A stretch of DNA of 33,522 nt, taken from NCBI GenBank assembly GCA_014874185.1, contig JACWAF010000004.1:1-33522 (forward strand). The letters are read 5' to 3'. The notes under the pieces are model-generated. The model saw only the letters and a program-made list of their open reading frames with translations, was not told the origin of the DNA and did no database searches. Within the stretch, counting starts at the first letter, position 1; every line of letters begins with the position of its first letter. The stretch is from Nitrospirota bacterium (lineage in GTDB: Bacteria > Nitrospirota > Thermodesulfovibrionia > Thermodesulfovibrionales > JdFR-88). Shown in pieces: positions 1 to 19,217 of the stretch. Made by a program: the position numbers and the translations under genes.

Positions 1-201
1 CTACCCACCCCTTAATCCCCTCCTGGGAGGGGACGGGGGTGGGTTGGGTTCCCGGCGCGCGGAGCCTGCCCCGTACCTGATACGGGGCTTGCGGGAATGA
101 CAATTGGGAGGTCTTTTGCAGGCGAGTGGAGACGAAATGGGTTCTTCAGCGTCGTTAAATCCCCTCCCTTCAAGGGAGGGGCTGGGGGAGGGTGAACATT
201 T
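1..201. repeat. GC-rich dispersed repeat with hairpins
   Basis: Non-coding stretch downstream of the cytochrome gene. It holds three perfect hairpins: arms 16-23/26-33 (CCCCTCC-type), arms 68-75/81-88 (GCCCCGTA with TACGGGGC), and arms 161-168/174-181 (CCCCTCCC with GGGAGGGG). The middle hairpin is followed by GGAATGAC, and the same layout (GGGGC hairpin then GGAATGAC) recurs near 9018-9046. This looks like a dispersed intergenic repeat. The hairpin at 161-181 may also act as an mRNA 3' end for the cytochrome, although no strong U-tract follows it. Confidence 0.55.
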
Positions 202-11613: not shown

Positions 11614-11750
11614 ATAACCAGACCAGTATTGCTTTTTGTTCATTCACCGCCGATTGTGACAAACGTTACATCTTTTTCCTGCCTGCAAATCTTATCCTAA
11701 GTACGTTGCAAGTTCTTTGAGACATCGTTCTCTCTGAAGTTTCCGAAAAG

Positions 11751-11845
11751 GTAAACTCCGGGCAACCGGGGGGCACAAAGCCACGGGTCCTTTCGGTTGA
11801 AAGGACGGCCGGGTTGCCGAAGAAACAGCGCCGGCCGGAGTTTAT
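11751..11845 (+). ncRNA. Cyclic di-GMP-I (GEMM) riboswitch
   Basis: The conserved core GGCACAAAGCCACGGGTCC (11772-11790) is followed by a P3 hairpin and GGCCGGGTTGCCGAAG (11807-11822), the hallmark tetraloop-receptor half of GEMM-I aptamers. The outer P1 stem is AAACTCCGG (11753-11761) with CCGGAGTTT (11835-11843). The P2 hairpin is shorter than in the Vibrio example. An intrinsic terminator follows 10 bases later, then the ribosome site of a large secreted protein. Whether c-di-GMP (or cAMP-GMP in the Ib variant) turns expression on or off cannot be decided by eye. Confidence 0.85.
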
Positions 11846-11854
11846 TTCGGAATG

Positions 11855-11890
11855 AGCCTGTTTCCCTTTTCAGGGAAACGGGCTTTTTTA
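11855..11890 (+). terminator. Riboswitch-linked intrinsic terminator
   Basis: AGCCTGTTTCCC (11855-11866), a six-base loop, GGGAAACGGGCT (11873-11884), then a T-run. It sits between the c-di-GMP aptamer and the AAAGGAGG ribosome site, so it is the likely expression platform for premature termination. Confidence 0.8.
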
Positions 11891-11907: not shown

Positions 11908-13989
11908 ATGAAAAGACTTAAACTGGTTGGTTTTCTGACGGCAGTTTTGCTGCTGGCTGTATTAATCCCTCTAATCGGTGGGGCCGCCGAGGCCGCCACC
12001 TATTATGTGGCCACGAACGGAAGCGATGGCAATCCCGGCACTCAAGCCGCGCCCTGGGCCACCTTCTCGCATTCCGTGGGAGCGCTTCAGCCGGGTGATA
12101 CGCTGCTTATCCAGAACGGCACTTATCACGAGGCCCTGAATGTTACCCGCTCCGGAACGGCATCCGCGCCAATTACGATCCAGGCTGTAAACGACGGGCA
12201 GGCAATCGTTGACTGCCAGGGCTCAGCAGCTCATGCCCTTTATATTTACGGCCAGAGCTATGTCAATGTGCAAGGTATTGTCTTTAAGAACACCTCCGAC
12301 GATGTAGTCAAGGTTGGCGGGGGATCTCACAATGATAATCTCCGAAGGCTTTCCGCCTATAACTCCGGGATCGGAAATTATCACATTTTCGATGTGTCCG
12401 GCGCATCTTATATCCTGATAGAAGATTCAGTGGCTTCGCAAACCGCTGGTTCAAATAAAGCCGGCAGATACGGGTTCATGTCTTTTAGCGGGGCCAATCA
12501 CAATACTTTCAGGCGCAATTACGTGAAGTATTACAGCCATACCGGGGGCGGCGGACCCTGCGCGGCGGCCGCTGATTACGGCGGCAGTTACGATGTGTGG
12601 GAGAACAATGTCTTTGACGTTTCGCAGATGCCGGCAGGATGCAGCCCCATAGGCTACCAGTTCGGGATTTTCGGAACAGGCGCATATTACGACACATCGC
12701 ACAACAAATGGTATGGCAACGTGGTCATCGGCGGGCCCAATCTCGCTTCGGCAGTGCATGGAGAAACATCCGGGGAATCTATGCAAGGCTGGGAATTTTA
12801 CAACAACGTCTTTCTTAACGCTCCCCAAGGAGTTGTGGATATGGCAGGATCTCTTGGATCGGGTTGGATATTCGACAACAATACCGTTGCAAAGATGTCC
12901 AGCTCATCATTGCAATCCCTTGGATCGGGAACAACAATCTCCGCATCAAGCAACTCGTATGTTTCCAGTGCAGTAGGTGAACAAGCGTCGTCCAGCGGCT
13001 CTTTGACCAGCCGTTACAATAATTTTTCATCTATTGGAACTCCGTACAGCGGCAGCGTTTCAGATAAGACAGGGGACCAAACCATGACAGCCTCATATGA
13101 CACGGCAACCTATGGCCTTGGAGCTTATTTGATGGCGCCCTCCGGTATGATGGGAAAAGGTGAAAACGGAGGCAATATCGGGGCTAATGTGCTTTACGAG
13201 TACCAGAACGGCCAGCTTACAAATGTGCCGCTCTGGCCATGGCCGATGGAAAGCAGGATCAAAGCCGAACTGGGCATAAGCCCCACTTACGCAAGCGGCG
13301 GCGGGCTCTGGACGACACTGAACGGAGTATATTCTTCCTCAGCACCTGCTCCTTCGCCAACTCCAACGCCAACTCCAACTCCTACACCGAGTCCTATTCC
13401 CACTCCGACACCAACGCCCACTCCCACCTCCGGTTCGGGCGGCAGCTCTTCCGGCGCAAACCCTTCGGATTCTATCAGCGCCCCACAACTCATAGCGCCG
13501 GCAAGCGGCTCGGTCGTAGGCACCACGGTGACTTTCGAATGGACCCCCTCGGTCAGCCAGGCGGGAAAACCTGTTACGTATACCCATTATTACTGCACGG
13601 ACCAGGCGATGACCAACTGCATTTCGAATAACGTTGTGGCCCAGAACAGCCCGGTGAAGACTTACGCGGGAATGGGCGGACTGCTCTCCGGAATGGTCCT
13701 GTTCGGGATCGGGTTCGCGGGCGGCCCGTTGTCCAGAAAGAAGAAGATAGCGATACTGATAGCACTCCTTCTGCTTTCGTTGGCGGTGGTCTCCTGTGGC
13801 GGAGGTGGCGCGGGCAGTTCCAGCCCGAATTCCTCAAATCCTTCTCAAACGGTCGGCTCCGCACCAGGCAGCGATATCACATACACGGCATCGGGTTTGC
13901 AGAACGGGACCACCTATTACTGGAAGGTCGCGGCAACTGACGGGCAGGTCTCAACCGAAAGCCAGGCTGCAAGCTTCAAGACAAATTAG
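11908..13989 (+). CDS. Secreted parallel beta-helix protein with split FN3-like domain
   Basis: 693 aa from ATG 11908 (ribosome site AAAGGAGG). A signal peptide ends GAAEAA near residue 30. A pectate-lyase-like right-handed beta-helix follows, opening with the DUF1565-type YYVATNGSDGNPGTQAAPW and GDTLLIQNGTY. Then come a Pro-Thr-Ser linker (about 480-508) and a fibronectin-III-like domain (about 521-693). That domain is interrupted at about 585-650 by a membrane hairpin: a Gly-rich segment (589-608), RKKK at 610-613, a second hydrophobic helix and a lipobox-like VVSC (C630) followed by GGGG. The FN3 strands then resume (GLQNGTTYYWKVAATDG). It is probably a surface polysaccharide-binding, lyase or adhesin protein whose expression responds to c-di-GMP through the upstream riboswitch. 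Catalytic residues were not identified. Confidence 0.82.
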   Translation: MKRLKLVGFLTAVLLLAVLIPLIGGAAEAATYYVATNGSDGNPGTQAAPWATFSHSVGALQPGDTLLIQNGTYHEALNVTRSGTASAPITIQAVNDGQAIVDCQGSAAHALYIYGQSYVNVQGIVFKNTSDDVVKVGGGSHNDNLRRLSAYNSGIGNYHIFDVSGASYILIEDSVASQTAGSNKAGRYGFMSFSGANHNTFRRNYVKYYSHTGGGGPCAAAADYGGSYDVWENNVFDVSQMPAGCSPIGYQFGIFGTGAYYDTSHNKWYGNVVIGGPNLASAVHGETSGESMQGWEFYNNVFLNAPQGVVDMAGSLGSGWIFDNNTVAKMSSSSLQSLGSGTTISASSNSYVSSAVGEQASSSGSLTSRYNNFSSIGTPYSGSVSDKTGDQTMTASYDTATYGLGAYLMAPSGMMGKGENGGNIGANVLYEYQNGQLTNVPLWPWPMESRIKAELGISPTYASGGGLWTTLNGVYSSSAPAPSPTPTPTPTPTPSPIPTPTPTPTPTSGSGGSSSGANPSDSISAPQLIAPASGSVVGTTVTFEWTPSVSQAGKPVTYTHYYCTDQAMTNCISNNVVAQNSPVKTYAGMGGLLSGMVLFGIGFAGGPLSRKKKIAILIALLLLSLAVVSCGGGGAGSSSPNSSNPSQTVGSAPGSDITYTASGLQNGTTYYWKVAATDGQVSTESQAASFKTN

Positions 13990-14045: not shown

Positions 14046-15203
14046 TTATTTCTTTAAACAGCTATAAATATTATCCAGGTCTGCCATGATCCTCTCAAGG
14101 CTGAAATTTTTTTGCGTGAATTCCCGGCCGTTTTTACCCAGCCTAGCGGCAAGTTCATCATCACGAAGCAGTTTTATGACCGAGGACGCGAACTCCTCCG
14201 GACCGTCCGCCACCAGCAAGTCCATTCCGGAAACCGCCTCTATCCCCTCGTTTCCATAAGGGGTGGTCACGACCGGCAGCCCGGCGGCCATCGCCTCAAG
14301 TATCTTGGCTATTATCCCTCCGCCCGTCAGAATTGGAGCGGCGAAGACATGGGCTTTCTTGTAGGATTCTTCCAGGTGCGGCACGAAACCGGGCACCACA
14401 AAAGAAGGGTCATCCCTTGCGGCGGAGAGCATCTCCCCCGTGGGGCCGTAACCCGCCGCAATGAACCTCGCATCCGGCACTTCTCTTTTTATAACAGGGA
14501 AGATATTTTTGTAAAAATACAGGGCGGCCCGCACGTTCTCCGTGCGGTACTTGTAAGAAGCCAGAAAGAGTATGGAGCCTGGCCCCCTTGGAAACCTGCG
14601 CTCCGAAAAACCGGGCGCGGGATGGGCCACCACTTTGACCTTCACATCACAGCCGGTCCTGGCTGCCAGATATCGCCTGTCATATTCGGAGCGGGTCAGA
14701 ACGAGATCAGACTTCTTCACGGCCCGCCTTTCAAGCCCTGTCATGGCAAGAAATCTCATCTCCTGCACAAGCCGGGAGATCCCCTTGGATTGCGTTTTCA
14801 CCCTTTCGGCGGGTTTTGAAAGCACGTCATGGGCGTCGAGGACCACCGGAGTGGAGTTTTTCCTGAAGAAGAAGCCGGACTCAACCCACTCCAGCTGAAC
14901 AAGATCGTATTTGCCGGAAGAGGCAATCCCGCTTGCCCAGCGGCTGAACGAGATATAATTGAGGGCAAGCCTCAGTTTATCAAGCGGCCCTCTCTTCCCG
15001 CAAGACCTGTATGGGAAAAGATAAACATTACCGCAATAGGGCCGGACGGATTCCGCGAGGGCCTCTTCACCTTCTTCAAACCTTGCGGCAAGCTCTATCT
15101 GGTGCCTGGCGGAGAGGGATTTTATGACCTCGAAGACGAACCGGCCCCCCGCATGATAGGCGTTGTCGTGAGGCAGGAAGAGGCTTACGAAGAGGATGCG
15201 CAT
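14046..15203 (-). CDS. GT4-type glycosyltransferase
   Basis: 385 aa with two Rossmann-like halves (GT-B fold). The N-terminal MRILFVSLFLPHDNAYHAGG contains the acceptor-side glycine-rich loop. The C-terminal half has ILFLASYKYRTENVRAALYF, then GYGPTGEML, and the nucleotide-sugar motif ILTGGGIIAKILEAMAAGLPVVTTPYGNEGI, with the E-x7-E type arrangement of retaining GT4 enzymes. Cytoplasmic, probably adding one sugar during repeat-unit or core assembly; donor and acceptor are unknown. It is the last gene of the polysaccharide operon, 21 bases after the sulfotransferase, and ends just before the bidirectional terminator. Confidence 0.88.
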   Translation of the reverse strand: MRILFVSLFLPHDNAYHAGGRFVFEVIKSLSARHQIELAARFEEGEEALAESVRPYCGNVYLFPYRSCGKRGPLDKLRLALNYISFSRWASGIASSGKYDLVQLEWVESGFFFRKNSTPVVLDAHDVLSKPAERVKTQSKGISRLVQEMRFLAMTGLERRAVKKSDLVLTRSEYDRRYLAARTGCDVKVKVVAHPAPGFSERRFPRGPGSILFLASYKYRTENVRAALYFYKNIFPVIKREVPDARFIAAGYGPTGEMLSAARDDPSFVVPGFVPHLEESYKKAHVFAAPILTGGGIIAKILEAMAAGLPVVTTPYGNEGIEAVSGMDLLVADGPEEFASSVIKLLRDDELAARLGKNGREFTQKNFSLERIMADLDNIYSCLKK

Positions 15204-15224
15204 CGGGGAAAGTTTTTCAGAAGA

Positions 15225-16370
15225 TCAGGCGGCATTCGCGCTTGAAGAAGGCCCCGGTCTTCGGGCCAGTTCCGTCTCAAGCTCCGCAATCCGGGCGTCC
15301 TTCTCTCTTACCATCTTGTCCAGGCCCTGGCCCCATACTCCCAGATTCTGGATCTCCTTTTGCAAATCCGCGATCATCTCATCCCGTTTCATGATTTTTT
15401 TATCCAGCCCTGTGCCCCAGGTGCTTAGATTCTGCACGTTGCCCGGGGTGAGCGAGTCGGCATATTCGAGGAACAGCCTTTTCATCTCATCGAAGGCGGA
15501 GGCATCCGGCCCGGCACCTCCATCCCGCAATATGCCGGAATAGAATTCGAAGGCTTCCCTCTCGAATGCCTTTTCGCTCCTGATGTTTGCCTCTATGCCG
15601 TAATCATCATCCCTGCTGTAACTGGAGCTGTTCAGCCTCCTTTTAAGAGGCAGCTGGCAATCCTCATGGAACGGCTCGCCTATGAACTGAAGGCATCTGG
15701 CCAGAATTACGGCGGGCTCTCCCACCAGGTCTTCGTAATGGATGCGGAGCACCTTTTCAGGGCCAAGCGCCTTTTCTGAAAGAACGGACGCTTTTACCAG
15801 CCGCAGCCAGGTCCGGTAGGCTTCCTCCTCAGAATAATCCTGGCCCCCTACCGTGGAGAAATGCATCAGGGAGCGGGCCACCTGCTTTGGGTTCCTCAGG
15901 ATATGGATAAACTTCGATTTGGGAAAGAGCATATCCAGACCATAAACATAATGTGAATTCTCCGGTGTGCCGTCCACCCATCTCATCTTCAGGTCGCTTT
16001 CGCCGCGGATGAGCTGTATGTATTCGCTCAAAAGCTCCGGGTTCTCCTCACCCCTTTTAAGGGAGCTTTCGACATACCTCTCCAGATATATCTTTATGAA
16101 GCTATCTACCGCCGCCCCGAAGAAGTTGTAAAATTCAGGCTTGTCCACGCCAACCGCCCCCAGGTGAGAATGCTCCCTGTTCGCGGTGGCCAGCCAGTAG
16201 ATATATTCCAGGTTGACGCCGAGGGCGGCTATCCAGTTTGTCTCTTCGAGGGGCAGGATATTCGGGTGCTGCCCCAGGCTCCATGTGAGCACGCTTGTGC
16301 CAGACCGGTAAGAGCCTATTATAAATACGGGCCTGATCTCATTGTGAAGAACCGGTTTTAGCTCAGACAT
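15225..16370 (-). CDS. PAPS-dependent sulfotransferase with W-repeat coiled coil
   Basis: 381 aa. The 5'-phosphosulfate-binding loop is FIIGSYRSGTSVLTWSL at about 16-32 and the 3'-phosphate-binding region is FIHILRNPKQVARSLMHFS near 155, both diagnostic of sulfotransferases. It should transfer sulfate from PAPS to a sugar hydroxyl. The donor can be supplied by the APS kinase at 32681 in the same locus. Residues about 313-370 form a coiled coil with two 28-residue repeats whose tryptophans are W318 and W346 (WGxGLDK...KDxxIAxLxxE). The same repeat ends the methyltransferase at 29328. Its start overlaps the gmhA stop by eight bases. The acceptor could be the exported glycan or a lipid; this is not determined. 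Confidence 0.87.
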   Translation of the reverse strand: MSELKPVLHNEIRPVFIIGSYRSGTSVLTWSLGQHPNILPLEETNWIAALGVNLEYIYWLATANREHSHLGAVGVDKPEFYNFFGAAVDSFIKIYLERYVESSLKRGEENPELLSEYIQLIRGESDLKMRWVDGTPENSHYVYGLDMLFPKSKFIHILRNPKQVARSLMHFSTVGGQDYSEEEAYRTWLRLVKASVLSEKALGPEKVLRIHYEDLVGEPAVILARCLQFIGEPFHEDCQLPLKRRLNSSSYSRDDDYGIEANIRSEKAFEREAFEFYSGILRDGGAGPDASAFDEMKRLFLEYADSLTPGNVQNLSTWGTGLDKKIMKRDEMIADLQKEIQNLGVWGQGLDKMVREKDARIAELETELARRPGPSSSANAA

Positions 16371-16941
16371 CCTTTCCGAATATCTCCCTTTCTATCAGCT
16401 CACAGATTATGTGGCCCACGGTAATATGCGCCTCCTGTATTCGCGGCGTATCGTCAGAAGGCGCGCAAAAACAGATATCGGCCAGCTCCTTGAGCTTTCC
16501 GCCTTTCTTCCCCGTAAAGCCCACCGAGAGCATGCCCTTTCCCTTTGCGGTCCTTATGGCCTCGATAACGTTAGGGGAATTTCCGCTTGTGGAGATGCCT
16601 ACCGCCACATCTCCTTCCCGCCCGGACGCCTCTATCTGTTTTGAGAATATCATCTCGAATGAATAATCATTGGCTATGGCGGTGAGGACGGATGTATTGG
16701 TGCTGAGGGCCTCGGCGGGAAGGCCCCTTCTTTCCATATAGAAGCGGCTTACGATCTCAGCGCAGAGGTGATGTGCGTCGGCGGCGCTCCCCCCGTTGCC
16801 GAAAAAAAATATCTTTCCGCCGTTTTTCAGGCAATCCACCGCGGCGGAGGCAATCTGCCGGATGGCTTCGGCCTCTTTCAGGCATTCCAGCTTTACCCGG
16901 CTGCTCTCCTCCAGTCTTTCTTTTATAAGAGAGGAGTTCAC
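16363..16941 (-). CDS. gmhA: Sedoheptulose-7-phosphate isomerase
   Basis: 192 aa, matching the usual GmhA length. It starts at GTG inside a GTGA overlap with the hldA stop; the long open frame upstream overlaps hldA and is not used. Single SIS domain: FFGNGGSAADAHHLCAEIVSRF contains the sugar-phosphate loop and metal-binding His/Glu, and STSGNSPNVIEAI is the second phosphate loop. It converts sedoheptulose 7-phosphate to D-glycero-D-manno-heptose 7-phosphate, the first step to ADP- or GDP-heptose for LPS core or surface glycan. The next enzyme, HldA, is encoded directly upstream. Confidence 0.94.
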   Translation of the reverse strand: MNSSLIKERLEESSRVKLECLKEAEAIRQIASAAVDCLKNGGKIFFFGNGGSAADAHHLCAEIVSRFYMERRGLPAEALSTNTSVLTAIANDYSFEMIFSKQIEASGREGDVAVGISTSGNSPNVIEAIRTAKGKGMLSVGFTGKKGGKLKELADICFCAPSDDTPRIQEAHITVGHIICELIEREIFGKDV

Positions 16942-17936
16942 AATTTCTCTCTTGCCAGTTTCGTGTTGTTTTCGCGCAGCGAAAGCTCCAGGTCGGCAAC
17001 CGACGCGGTGGCCGTGCCCACCTGCCCTACCACAATGCCTGCCGCGTGGTTTGCTATAAGCGCCGCCTCGGATATCTCGCACCCGGCCACATGGGCCAGG
17101 GTCATTGTGGCAATGACCGAGTCGCCGGCCCCGGTCACGTCGTACACGCTCTTCGCGACGGTCGGGATATGGACCACACTATTTTTTTCGAAGAGGCTCA
17201 TGCCATGCTCGCCGCGGGTGATGAGGACGGCATCGCACTTGAGCCTGCTCAGTAGTTTTCGTCCGGCTTCCTTCAGGCTCTGGTTATCGGTTATCTCCAC
17301 TCCGGAGCCCTCCTGGGCCTCCTTCAGGTTCGGCGTTATGATTGAGACGCCTGTATAGTAGTCGAAATGCCCCACCTTCGGGTCCACGGAGACGAAACAC
17401 CCATTCTTTTTATATTTTCTTAAGGTCTTCATCAGTCCATGCGAGATCACGCCTTTTTTATAATCGGAGATTATGACGCCGTCCCACTGCCCCTTTCCGG
17501 AGTCTATGTAGTCCAGCATCTTTTTGAGCGTGTCCTCCGGGTGGGCCCCCCGCTCCTCCTTGTCTATCCTTACCACCTGCTGGTTATGGGCTATAACCCT
17601 GGTCTTCACGGTAGTGCACCTTTCGCACTCGAATATCCCGGAGGTCTCTATCCCCCTTTCTTTCAGAAGGCTTGTCAGGACCTCCCCGTACAGGTCCGTC
17701 CCCTTCACGCCCAGTATGGCGGCCCTGCCCCCCAGGGCGACGATGTTCGCGGCAACGTTTGCCGCCCCACCCACTACGAAGTTCTCCCTTTTCATGTCTA
17801 TTACGGGCACCGGCGCTTCCGGCGATATCCTGTCCACAAGCCCCCAGATATAATGGTCAAGTATCAGGTCTCCAACCACCAGGATGGTCTTTTTCCTGAA
17901 ATTCTCAAAAAGCCAGGAGTACTTCGACGTGCTCAT
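16938..17936 (-). CDS. hldA: D-glycero-beta-D-manno-heptose-7-phosphate kinase
   Basis: 332 aa PfkB/ribokinase-family sugar kinase. GDLILDHYIWGLVDRISPEAPVPV at about 22-45 is typical of the heptokinase half of HldE. GGAANVAANIVALGG near 57 and DVTGAGDSVIATM near 265 (catalytic Asp) complete the family signature. The C-terminal cytidylyl/adenylyltransferase half of fused HldE is absent, so this is the stand-alone HldA form. A separate HldC and a GmhB must be elsewhere. It phosphorylates the product of GmhA at C1, and gmhA overlaps its stop. The 54-base gap to the preceding GT9 shows no terminator. Confidence 0.93.
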   Translation of the reverse strand: MSTSKYSWLFENFRKKTILVVGDLILDHYIWGLVDRISPEAPVPVIDMKRENFVVGGAANVAANIVALGGRAAILGVKGTDLYGEVLTSLLKERGIETSGIFECERCTTVKTRVIAHNQQVVRIDKEERGAHPEDTLKKMLDYIDSGKGQWDGVIISDYKKGVISHGLMKTLRKYKKNGCFVSVDPKVGHFDYYTGVSIITPNLKEAQEGSGVEITDNQSLKEAGRKLLSRLKCDAVLITRGEHGMSLFEKNSVVHIPTVAKSVYDVTGAGDSVIATMTLAHVAGCEISEAALIANHAAGIVVGQVGTATASVADLELSLRENNTKLAREKL

Positions 17937-17990
17937 GGGCGCGCTCCTCCAAACATAAAAAAGCGATATCTGAAATTATAGCGGCAAAAC

Positions 17991-19217
17991 TCAGACAATT
18001 GGAACCTCCAGCAAGCTCTCTATGGCGGAGAGCACTGTTTCGGGGGAAATCGATTCCATGCATGTGGGCCTTGTCTGGCACGAGGGCCTGTAGCAGCAGA
18101 CGCACGGGAGCGGCGGGACGACCTTCACGCCCCTGCCATATAGCTCTATCTCGTGGTGCGAAGTGGGGCCGAACAGGACGACGGCTTTTTTGCCAAGGGC
18201 AACCCCGATGTGCATGGCCAGGGTATCGCCAGTGACCAGGATGTCGCACAGACCCATGAGCGCGGCGAATTCACGTATGGAATTTCCGCACCCGGTATCC
18301 ACCAGGTCCGGGTTGGCCTGCCGCATCAGCGAATTGCGCTCCGCTTCTTCCGGGCCGCCGTAGAGGAGAATCCTCGCGTCAGGCAATTTATTTTCAATGA
18401 GCTCTGCAAGCCCCATATAGCCTTCCATGGTCCACTTCTTGTTTTCCCACCTGCCCCCGGCCCCGGTATTGAAGCCTATCACCAGGGGGGCCCCTTCCAG
18501 GCGGTGCTCCCTTGCGAATAAGGCCGCAAGCTCCCGCTCCTCCTCTGTCAGGTTCAGCACCAGCCGCCCCGTCCCATTATACCGCAGGCCGCATAACTCA
18601 TGCGCTATCTGCTGATAGGTCTTCCTGTTCCGCCGTTTGAGGGTGTCATCCACCCCCATGCGGAACCATTCCATCGCCCTTTCATTTGCCGGGTAGACGT
18701 GCCCCTTCTCGCTGTAAAGGTAGCCAAGTTTCTTCAGTCCCATGGACAGGGAGGCCAGTCTGCAGCTCATGGGCGAGGCGTCCAGGTTTATTACCAGGTC
18801 GAAATTGTCCGTGCCCAGCACTACCGGGGCCTGCGAGATATCGAATGCCCTGTCCACCAGCGGGTTGTTGAAGAAAAACGGGACGGACTCCGGCTTTGTT
18901 ATCCAGGTTATCCGCGAGAGCGGGTATTTCTTTTTCAGAGAGGGCAGTATGGAAGTGGTGCGCAGAACATCCCCGGCGGCGTCCAGCTTTATTATGAGGA
19001 TGCGCTCACCGACCGGCTCATAGCGGCCGCACTCTCCGCACCTGGCACCTTCCTGTTTATGGTGCACGCATGGCCTGTCGCCTGAGAAATGCCTGCAATC
19101 AAAGCTGGTGACCATCTCGCGGCCATATTGCCGCTGCCCGTTCCGGGCCTCTTTTATCGATCCCGAAGATTTGCCTTTTCTGGAATACAGGGTTTTATTA
19201 AGGCTTGTAGAAATCAT
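17991..19217 (-). CDS. GT9 (heptosyltransferase-like) with Cys-rich N-terminus
   Basis: 408 aa. The start at 19217 has GGAGGAGGG ahead of it; an internal ATG at 19115 would keep the whole recognised part. The ADP-heptose:LPS heptosyltransferase (GT9) signature is clear: ILIIKLDAAGDVLRTTSILP, GFNTGAGGRWENKKW, LYGGPEEAERN, and ILVTGDTLAMHIGVALGKKAVVLFGPT. Ahead of the catalytic domain is a cysteine/histidine-rich motif (DCRHFSGDRPC, then ARCGECGRY), and near the end a second cluster (PCVCCYRPSC, then CM). This looks like a metal or Fe-S site of unknown role. The gene precedes hldA and gmhA, which make its likely donor precursor, so heptose transfer is a reasonable inference. Confidence 0.85.
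   Translation of the reverse strand: MISTSLNKTLYSRKGKSSGSIKEARNGQRQYGREMVTSFDCRHFSGDRPCVHHKQEGARCGECGRYEPVGERILIIKLDAAGDVLRTTSILPSLKKKYPLSRITWITKPESVPFFFNNPLVDRAFDISQAPVVLGTDNFDLVINLDASPMSCRLASLSMGLKKLGYLYSEKGHVYPANERAMEWFRMGVDDTLKRRNRKTYQQIAHELCGLRYNGTGRLVLNLTEEERELAALFAREHRLEGAPLVIGFNTGAGGRWENKKWTMEGYMGLAELIENKLPDARILLYGGPEEAERNSLMRQANPDLVDTGCGNSIREFAALMGLCDILVTGDTLAMHIGVALGKKAVVLFGPTSHHEIELYGRGVKVVPPLPCVCCYRPSCQTRPTCMESISPETVLSAIESLLEVPIV

Follow-up and report, generated by a model that had tools for sequence, protein, structure and literature searches.

The stretch of DNA analysed here (33,522 nucleotides, hereafter the window) carries on its plus strand a gene for an exported protein of 693 residues (11908..13989, from an ATG start and with the stop codon included). 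An AGGAGG sequence, read as a ribosome-binding site, lies ahead of the ATG at 11908. The leader of this gene contains an aptamer of the c-di-GMP-I-GGC type of riboswitch (11741..11822, plus strand; Rfam RF03167, 64.1 bits for a gathering score of 59), and a terminator-like hairpin is located between the aptamer and the gene (11854-11885). The protein begins with an N-terminal Sec signal, MKRLKLVGFLTAVLLLAVLIPLIGGAAEA, which is devoid of a lipobox and for which our reading places the cut before the A that follows. The main body of the protein, referred to below as the passenger (11989..13338, plus strand), corresponds to a beta-helix of the chondroitinase-B/pectate-lyase-like type, matched by the Pfam model PF14592 with E=2.2e-8 and 34 bits, above the cut-off of 24. 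Its likeness to PelN is weak only (NF041899, 41.6 bits for a cut-off of 740). A Pro-Thr and Gly-Ser linker, recognised from the sequence (13339..13479, plus strand), connects the passenger to the C-terminal part of the protein. The gene is adjoined on the minus strand (14046-19217) by a cluster encoding a glycosyltransferase, a sulfotransferase, a SIS-domain protein, a PfkB kinase and a member of the heptosyltransferase family, which looks like a set for heptose/LPS or surface glycan synthesis.

The last ~170 residues of the protein constitute a module that reads as one FN3 domain interrupted in its DE (C'-E) loop, the strands being named after FNfn10 according to our own assignment. All of its parts are encoded on the plus strand. 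The N-terminal half of the domain, with strands A-B-C-D(C') as placed by an AlphaFold2 (AF2) model, occupies 13480..13644. It is followed by a Gly-rich hydrophobic helix (helix 1, 13663..13725) with a YAG motif at its outer end, which we infer to re-enter the membrane from outside to inside. The basic cluster SRKKK comes next (13732..13746) and is predicted to be cytoplasmic from the net charge in the 86 copies. A second hydrophobic stretch (13747..13794, with 16 residues between the last charge and the Cys) would be the h-region of an internal lipoprotein signal peptide and runs into the lipobox VVS-C (13786..13797), whose Cys630 is encoded at 13795-13797. A Gly/Ser-rich linker of low pLDDT (13798..13875, module residues 109-131) then leads to the C-terminal half of the domain, with strands E-F-G (13876..13986), which is supported by the AF2 strands and by FN3-like Pfam matches and ends the protein. 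The sequence is thus exactly as described in an earlier note on this DNA, which had recognised FN3 strands on both sides of an insert made of a hydrophobic segment, RKKK, a second hydrophobic segment, VVSC and GGGG. The module possesses the lipobox with its Cys, the basic n-region and the uncharged h-region of a lipoprotein signal, but the Cys is residue 630 of 693 and hence internal, whereas such signals are N-terminal.

The assignment of both halves to one FN3 domain rests on a structural model. The AF2 model of the module (numbered 1..171) was built from a seven-sequence alignment. It shows strands at residues 6-8, 13-15, 19-23, 35-41 and 50-55 in the N-terminal half (mean pLDDT 88-96 over residues 1-50) and at 135-139, 147-155, 160-162 and 166-170 in the C-terminal half (mean pLDDT 92-97 from residue 141); no confident structure was obtained in this model for the hairpin insert. 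The Foldseek matches extend over the entire module and are to domains of the immunoglobulin fold, FN3 included, although none reaches E<=0.001; VIA-align superposed the model on an FN3 domain of neogenin with a Z score of 11.5, over 90 residues at 2.1 A. Since this comparison spans the model range 1..171, both halves are predicted to build a single fold, and the seven-strand sandwich characteristic of FN3 is found in the model. At the sequence level, Pfam fn3 matches 52 of 65 related modules at E<0.01; the match of the window module itself reaches 22.8 bits and falls short of the Pfam cut-off of 25. Relatives with an uninterrupted FN3 domain of this type exist in lipoproteins of Thermotogota and others, in which the profile positions 1-47 and 124-165 adjoin. 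The earlier note had regarded such insert-free homologues as an argument against its reading. They were indeed found, though in distant lipoproteins, and the reading survives them because they show that the hairpin has been inserted into a loop of an otherwise normal FN3 domain. The N-terminal half of the window module also contains Cys41 and Cys49, kept in 66 and 70 of the 86 copies respectively, and these two residues could form a disulfide stabilising this half.

The module is not restricted to this gene. Four copies are present in the source genome, the window copy included, and the three sibling passengers read by us as an SGNH-looking hydrolase, a LamG-like domain and a beta-propeller. 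The earlier note had suggested a search in other genomes; a four-sequence profile matched 45 of 200 genomes of the class, mostly over its full length. Among the named relatives, a Thermodesulfovibrio MAG (L061) and a Nitrospirae MAG (L063) belong to the same class and family, which makes Nitrospirota the likely origin of the window. Further relatives extend beyond the class to other classes of the phylum, to SAR324 (L064, L140) and to the phylum of a Desulfuromonadaceae MAG (L066, L227-L232). In all full-length copies the module stands at the C-terminus or a few residues from it, and nearly all full frames examined start with a hydrophobic export signal. The passengers belong to no common family: they comprise beta-propellers (SBBP), VesB/HYDIN-like Ig domains, the MopE Cu-binding motif and FG-GAP, as well as LamG, subtilase, M6 peptidase, NHL, beta-helices and others. 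The occurrence of the same tail on so many unrelated exported proteins makes it very probable that the module is a lipid anchor acting through the end of the chain. Several neighbouring large proteins all bear the tail at two loci (L107, four copies; L109, three copies), a local expansion of surface proteins. Two proteins (L099, L120) seem to contain an N-terminal lipobox (VFTACGGGG and LMACGSNGGG) besides the internal one, and on this account they could be lipidated twice. At one SAR324 locus (L070, 3842-4994) the N-terminal half of FN3, the hairpin and the C-terminal half are found in separate frames with an Ig-like stretch between them; this possible natural split was set aside, as frameshifts are its probable cause, although it is perhaps real.

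Conservation was evaluated on the 86 aligned copies, and on the set of 65 related sequences in which the mean column identity is only 34%. The lipobox Cys is invariant (86/86). It is preceded by S or A in 84 copies and followed by G in 78. Between the last charge and the Cys there are 14-20 residues in all copies, and 16-18 in 77 of the 86. N-terminal lipoprotein signals encoded in these genomes have an equally short spacing and terminate in the same S/A/G-C-G(n) sequence (LAACGGGG or YSCGGGG, for example). The ten residues ahead of the second stretch bear a net charge of +2 to +6 in every one of the 86 copies. The mean net charge is +3.7 on the predicted inner side versus -0.2 and -1.4 on the outer flanks, which are neutral to acidic, in accord with the positive-inside rule. 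About 28 more copies from other classes and another phylum all keep the Cys, two of them being truncated by contig ends; the shortened copies of 105 residues in one genome (G609) stop at contig ends. The YAG motif is conserved to a lesser degree (Y in 63, A in 77 and G in 67 of 86). A purely topological helix needs no such motif, which makes a recognition or cutting site possible at this position. The most conserved residues include the cores of both FN3 halves, namely P (86/86), W (85) and Y (85) in the first and W (86/86), D (85) and F (85) in the second. The succession of basic residues, hydrophobic stretch and lipobox is found in 80 of 86 modules, whereas shuffling of these modules yields it in 0.3 of 86 on average, and it occurs only once in 159,039 residues of other open reading frames past residue 100 in the fetched loci. 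A chance origin of this arrangement is excluded.

The earlier note had stated that no described sorting signal could be recognised. This has to be corrected, as the NCBIfam model NF058595 (invert_tail, 'lipo-invert putative C-terminal anchoring domain') matches the whole window protein with E=4.2e-7 and 30.3 bits, and the module alone with 32.6 bits. These scores remain below the curated cut-off of 37, so that by the curated rule the window copy is a homologous but unassigned member, whereas one sibling module (L032) passes it with 37.6 bits; 60 of the 65 aligned modules are matched at E<1e-3. Model and module share the C-terminal stretch made of helix 1, basic cluster, hydrophobic segment and lipobox Cys, but the matches cover mostly the hairpin and not the FN3 halves. 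This kind of tail is accordingly already catalogued in NCBIfam and, judging from these matches, the window copy joins a known kind; no paper naming or describing the lipo-invert tail was met in the literature searched. Beyond the name, the present analysis provides the split FN3 domain with its insertion loop, a Cys that is invariant across a broad sample, the YAG motif at the outer end of helix 1, a profile of proteases and the riboswitch link. The two possibilities raised in the earlier note, a cleavable internal anchor or a surface-attachment hairpin in a beta domain, both fit the evidence, with the Cys invariance on the side of lipidation; the novelty suggested for the hairpin does not stand, since the tail had been modelled before.

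Like the Sec/SPII signals of lipoproteins processed by Lgt and LspA, the module exhibits a basic n-region, an h-region of ~17 residues, S or A at position -1, the Cys and a Gly/Ser tether. Its signal is nevertheless internal, preceded by a re-entry helix and enclosed in a beta domain, and the passenger lies N-terminal to the Cys instead of C-terminal. The tripartite MYXO-CTERM, GlyGly-CTERM and JDVT-CTERM tags combine a motif, a hydrophobic helix and a basic cluster, one tag being found on unrelated exported substrates (PMC11980579). The module resembles them by its short motif (YAG-x-G), helix, basic cluster and variety of exported substrates. In contrast with MYXO-CTERM and GlyGly-CTERM, the chain continues past the basic cluster in all copies with the lipobox, the linker and the C-terminal FN3 half, and a dedicated CPBP protease or rhomboid is not present in every carrier genome, some of these genomes being incomplete. 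A parallel for the FN3 domain itself is the split monobody, an engineered FN3 cut in the CD loop whose two separate peptides reassemble to a form with binding activity (PMC11666773, citing Dutta et al. 2005). Here also one FN3 fold would arise from two separate chains, although the break is natural, is located in the DE loop and would leave the lipid on one of the fragments. The proposed retention of two FN3 pieces without a covalent bond thus has a published parallel. The split monobody melts near 45 deg C versus 78 deg C for the intact form (PMC11666773), and the tether provided by the module may therefore be weaker than an intact FN3 domain.

On the basis of these observations, the module is probably a portable C-terminal lipid-anchoring device, an 'inverted lipoprotein' tail that is processed by Lgt and LspA and whose FN3 halves are held together. 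Export of the passenger would depend on the Sec signal at its own N-terminus. Helix 1 would make the chain re-enter the inner membrane up to a basic cluster retained on the cytoplasmic side, from where the second hydrophobic stretch would cross outwards again as an internal lipoprotein signal peptide, in an out-in-out topology. Lgt would then lipidate Cys630 and LspA would cleave before it. The FN3 halves would fold together, leaving the passenger bound non-covalently to a small lipidated C-terminal piece possibly destined for the outer membrane or the surface. All 30 genomes checked, with or without the module, have one LspA copy, so that housekeeping processing would suffice for the cut at the Cys; an additional LspA copy as dedicated enzyme is ruled out by the same count. 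With the LspA cut alone, two membrane segments would be left on the passenger, which would be kept in the inner membrane. To reach the outer membrane it would need a second protease cutting helix 1, and such a cut, freeing the passenger from the inner membrane, is conjectural. In its fullest form the proposal turns the split FN3 into a non-covalent coupler: helix 1 would be cut at YAG by an intramembrane protease and the chain before the Cys by LspA, with loss of the hairpin; the passenger would then reach the outer membrane or surface bound to the FN3 half that bears the lipid, which would thus be placed on the C-terminal side of the passenger. This version is put forward tentatively, its being wrong having the better chance.

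Candidates for the second protease were sought among the CPBP and rhomboid families and among conserved neighbours. Of 45 carriers, 32 have CPBP proteases and 39 have rhomboids, versus 86 and 130, respectively, of the 155 other genomes, some of the genomes being incomplete; on these counts, neither family is a strict partner of the module. CPBP (PF02517) was rejected as the dedicated protease, being absent from two genomes (G038, listed as 100% complete, and G110, 99%) with four modules each, and so was rhomboid (PF01694), which occurs almost everywhere as one copy and is lacking in 6 of 45 carriers. An all-against-all blastp of the fetched neighbourhoods revealed no protease recurring beside the module genes, the sole recurring neighbourhood being that of the beta-propeller gene, which is syntenic among orthologues within the window's own family. 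These three approaches thus yielded no dedicated helix-1 protease. This result would suit a hairpin that is never cleaved, in which helix 1 together with the second stretch would simply span the inner membrane twice as an anchor, with a Cys either unmodified or lipidated without cleavage, all the more as the hairpin by itself would suffice to anchor the protein. Such an anchor, however, demands neither an invariant Cys, nor S or A at -1, nor an h-region of 16-18 residues in copies so diverged, and it has no need to be placed inside an FN3 loop. We consider it unlikely, and the absence of any variation at the Cys within the family speaks for lipidation rather than for a simple membrane hairpin.

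The cut before Cys630 could conversely act as a release switch, the C-terminal lipopeptide leaving, the two FN3 halves separating and the remainder staying membrane-bound or being set free. An intradomain cut could destabilise FN3, and the published split monobody is less stable than its intact counterpart (PMC11666773), but the core residues of both halves would not be expected among the most conserved positions unless their packing were obligatory, and this scenario also has a low probability. An artefact, in which misassembly or a frameshift fused a secreted protein to a downstream lipoprotein gene, was the other concern of the earlier note, which had considered an assembly chimera. The second half does resemble an N-terminal lipoprotein signal. 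Nevertheless, the frame is open at four loci of the source genome and more than 100 copies exist elsewhere, nearly all free of internal stops, so that this explanation is already refuted for practical purposes.

The riboswitch of the window gene also has counterparts in the family. A riboswitch of the same clan lies directly upstream and on the same strand in 8 of the 55 other module genes with enough upstream sequence (L055, L056, L086, L091, L098, L119 twice, and L120). Together with the aptamer of the window, this suggests that some module proteins belong to a surface programme under putative cyclic-dinucleotide control. If the anchoring mechanism proposed above is true, these bacteria would possess a lipid anchor on the C-terminal side of their proteins, obtained through the ordinary lipoprotein machinery by means of a beta domain that is cut yet remains coherent. 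It would represent a second route to the outcome of MYXO-CTERM, where a special protease is needed, and possibly a ready-made tag for C-terminal lipidation. It would also make it easier to delimit surface proteomes in many uncultured bacteria related to Nitrospirota.
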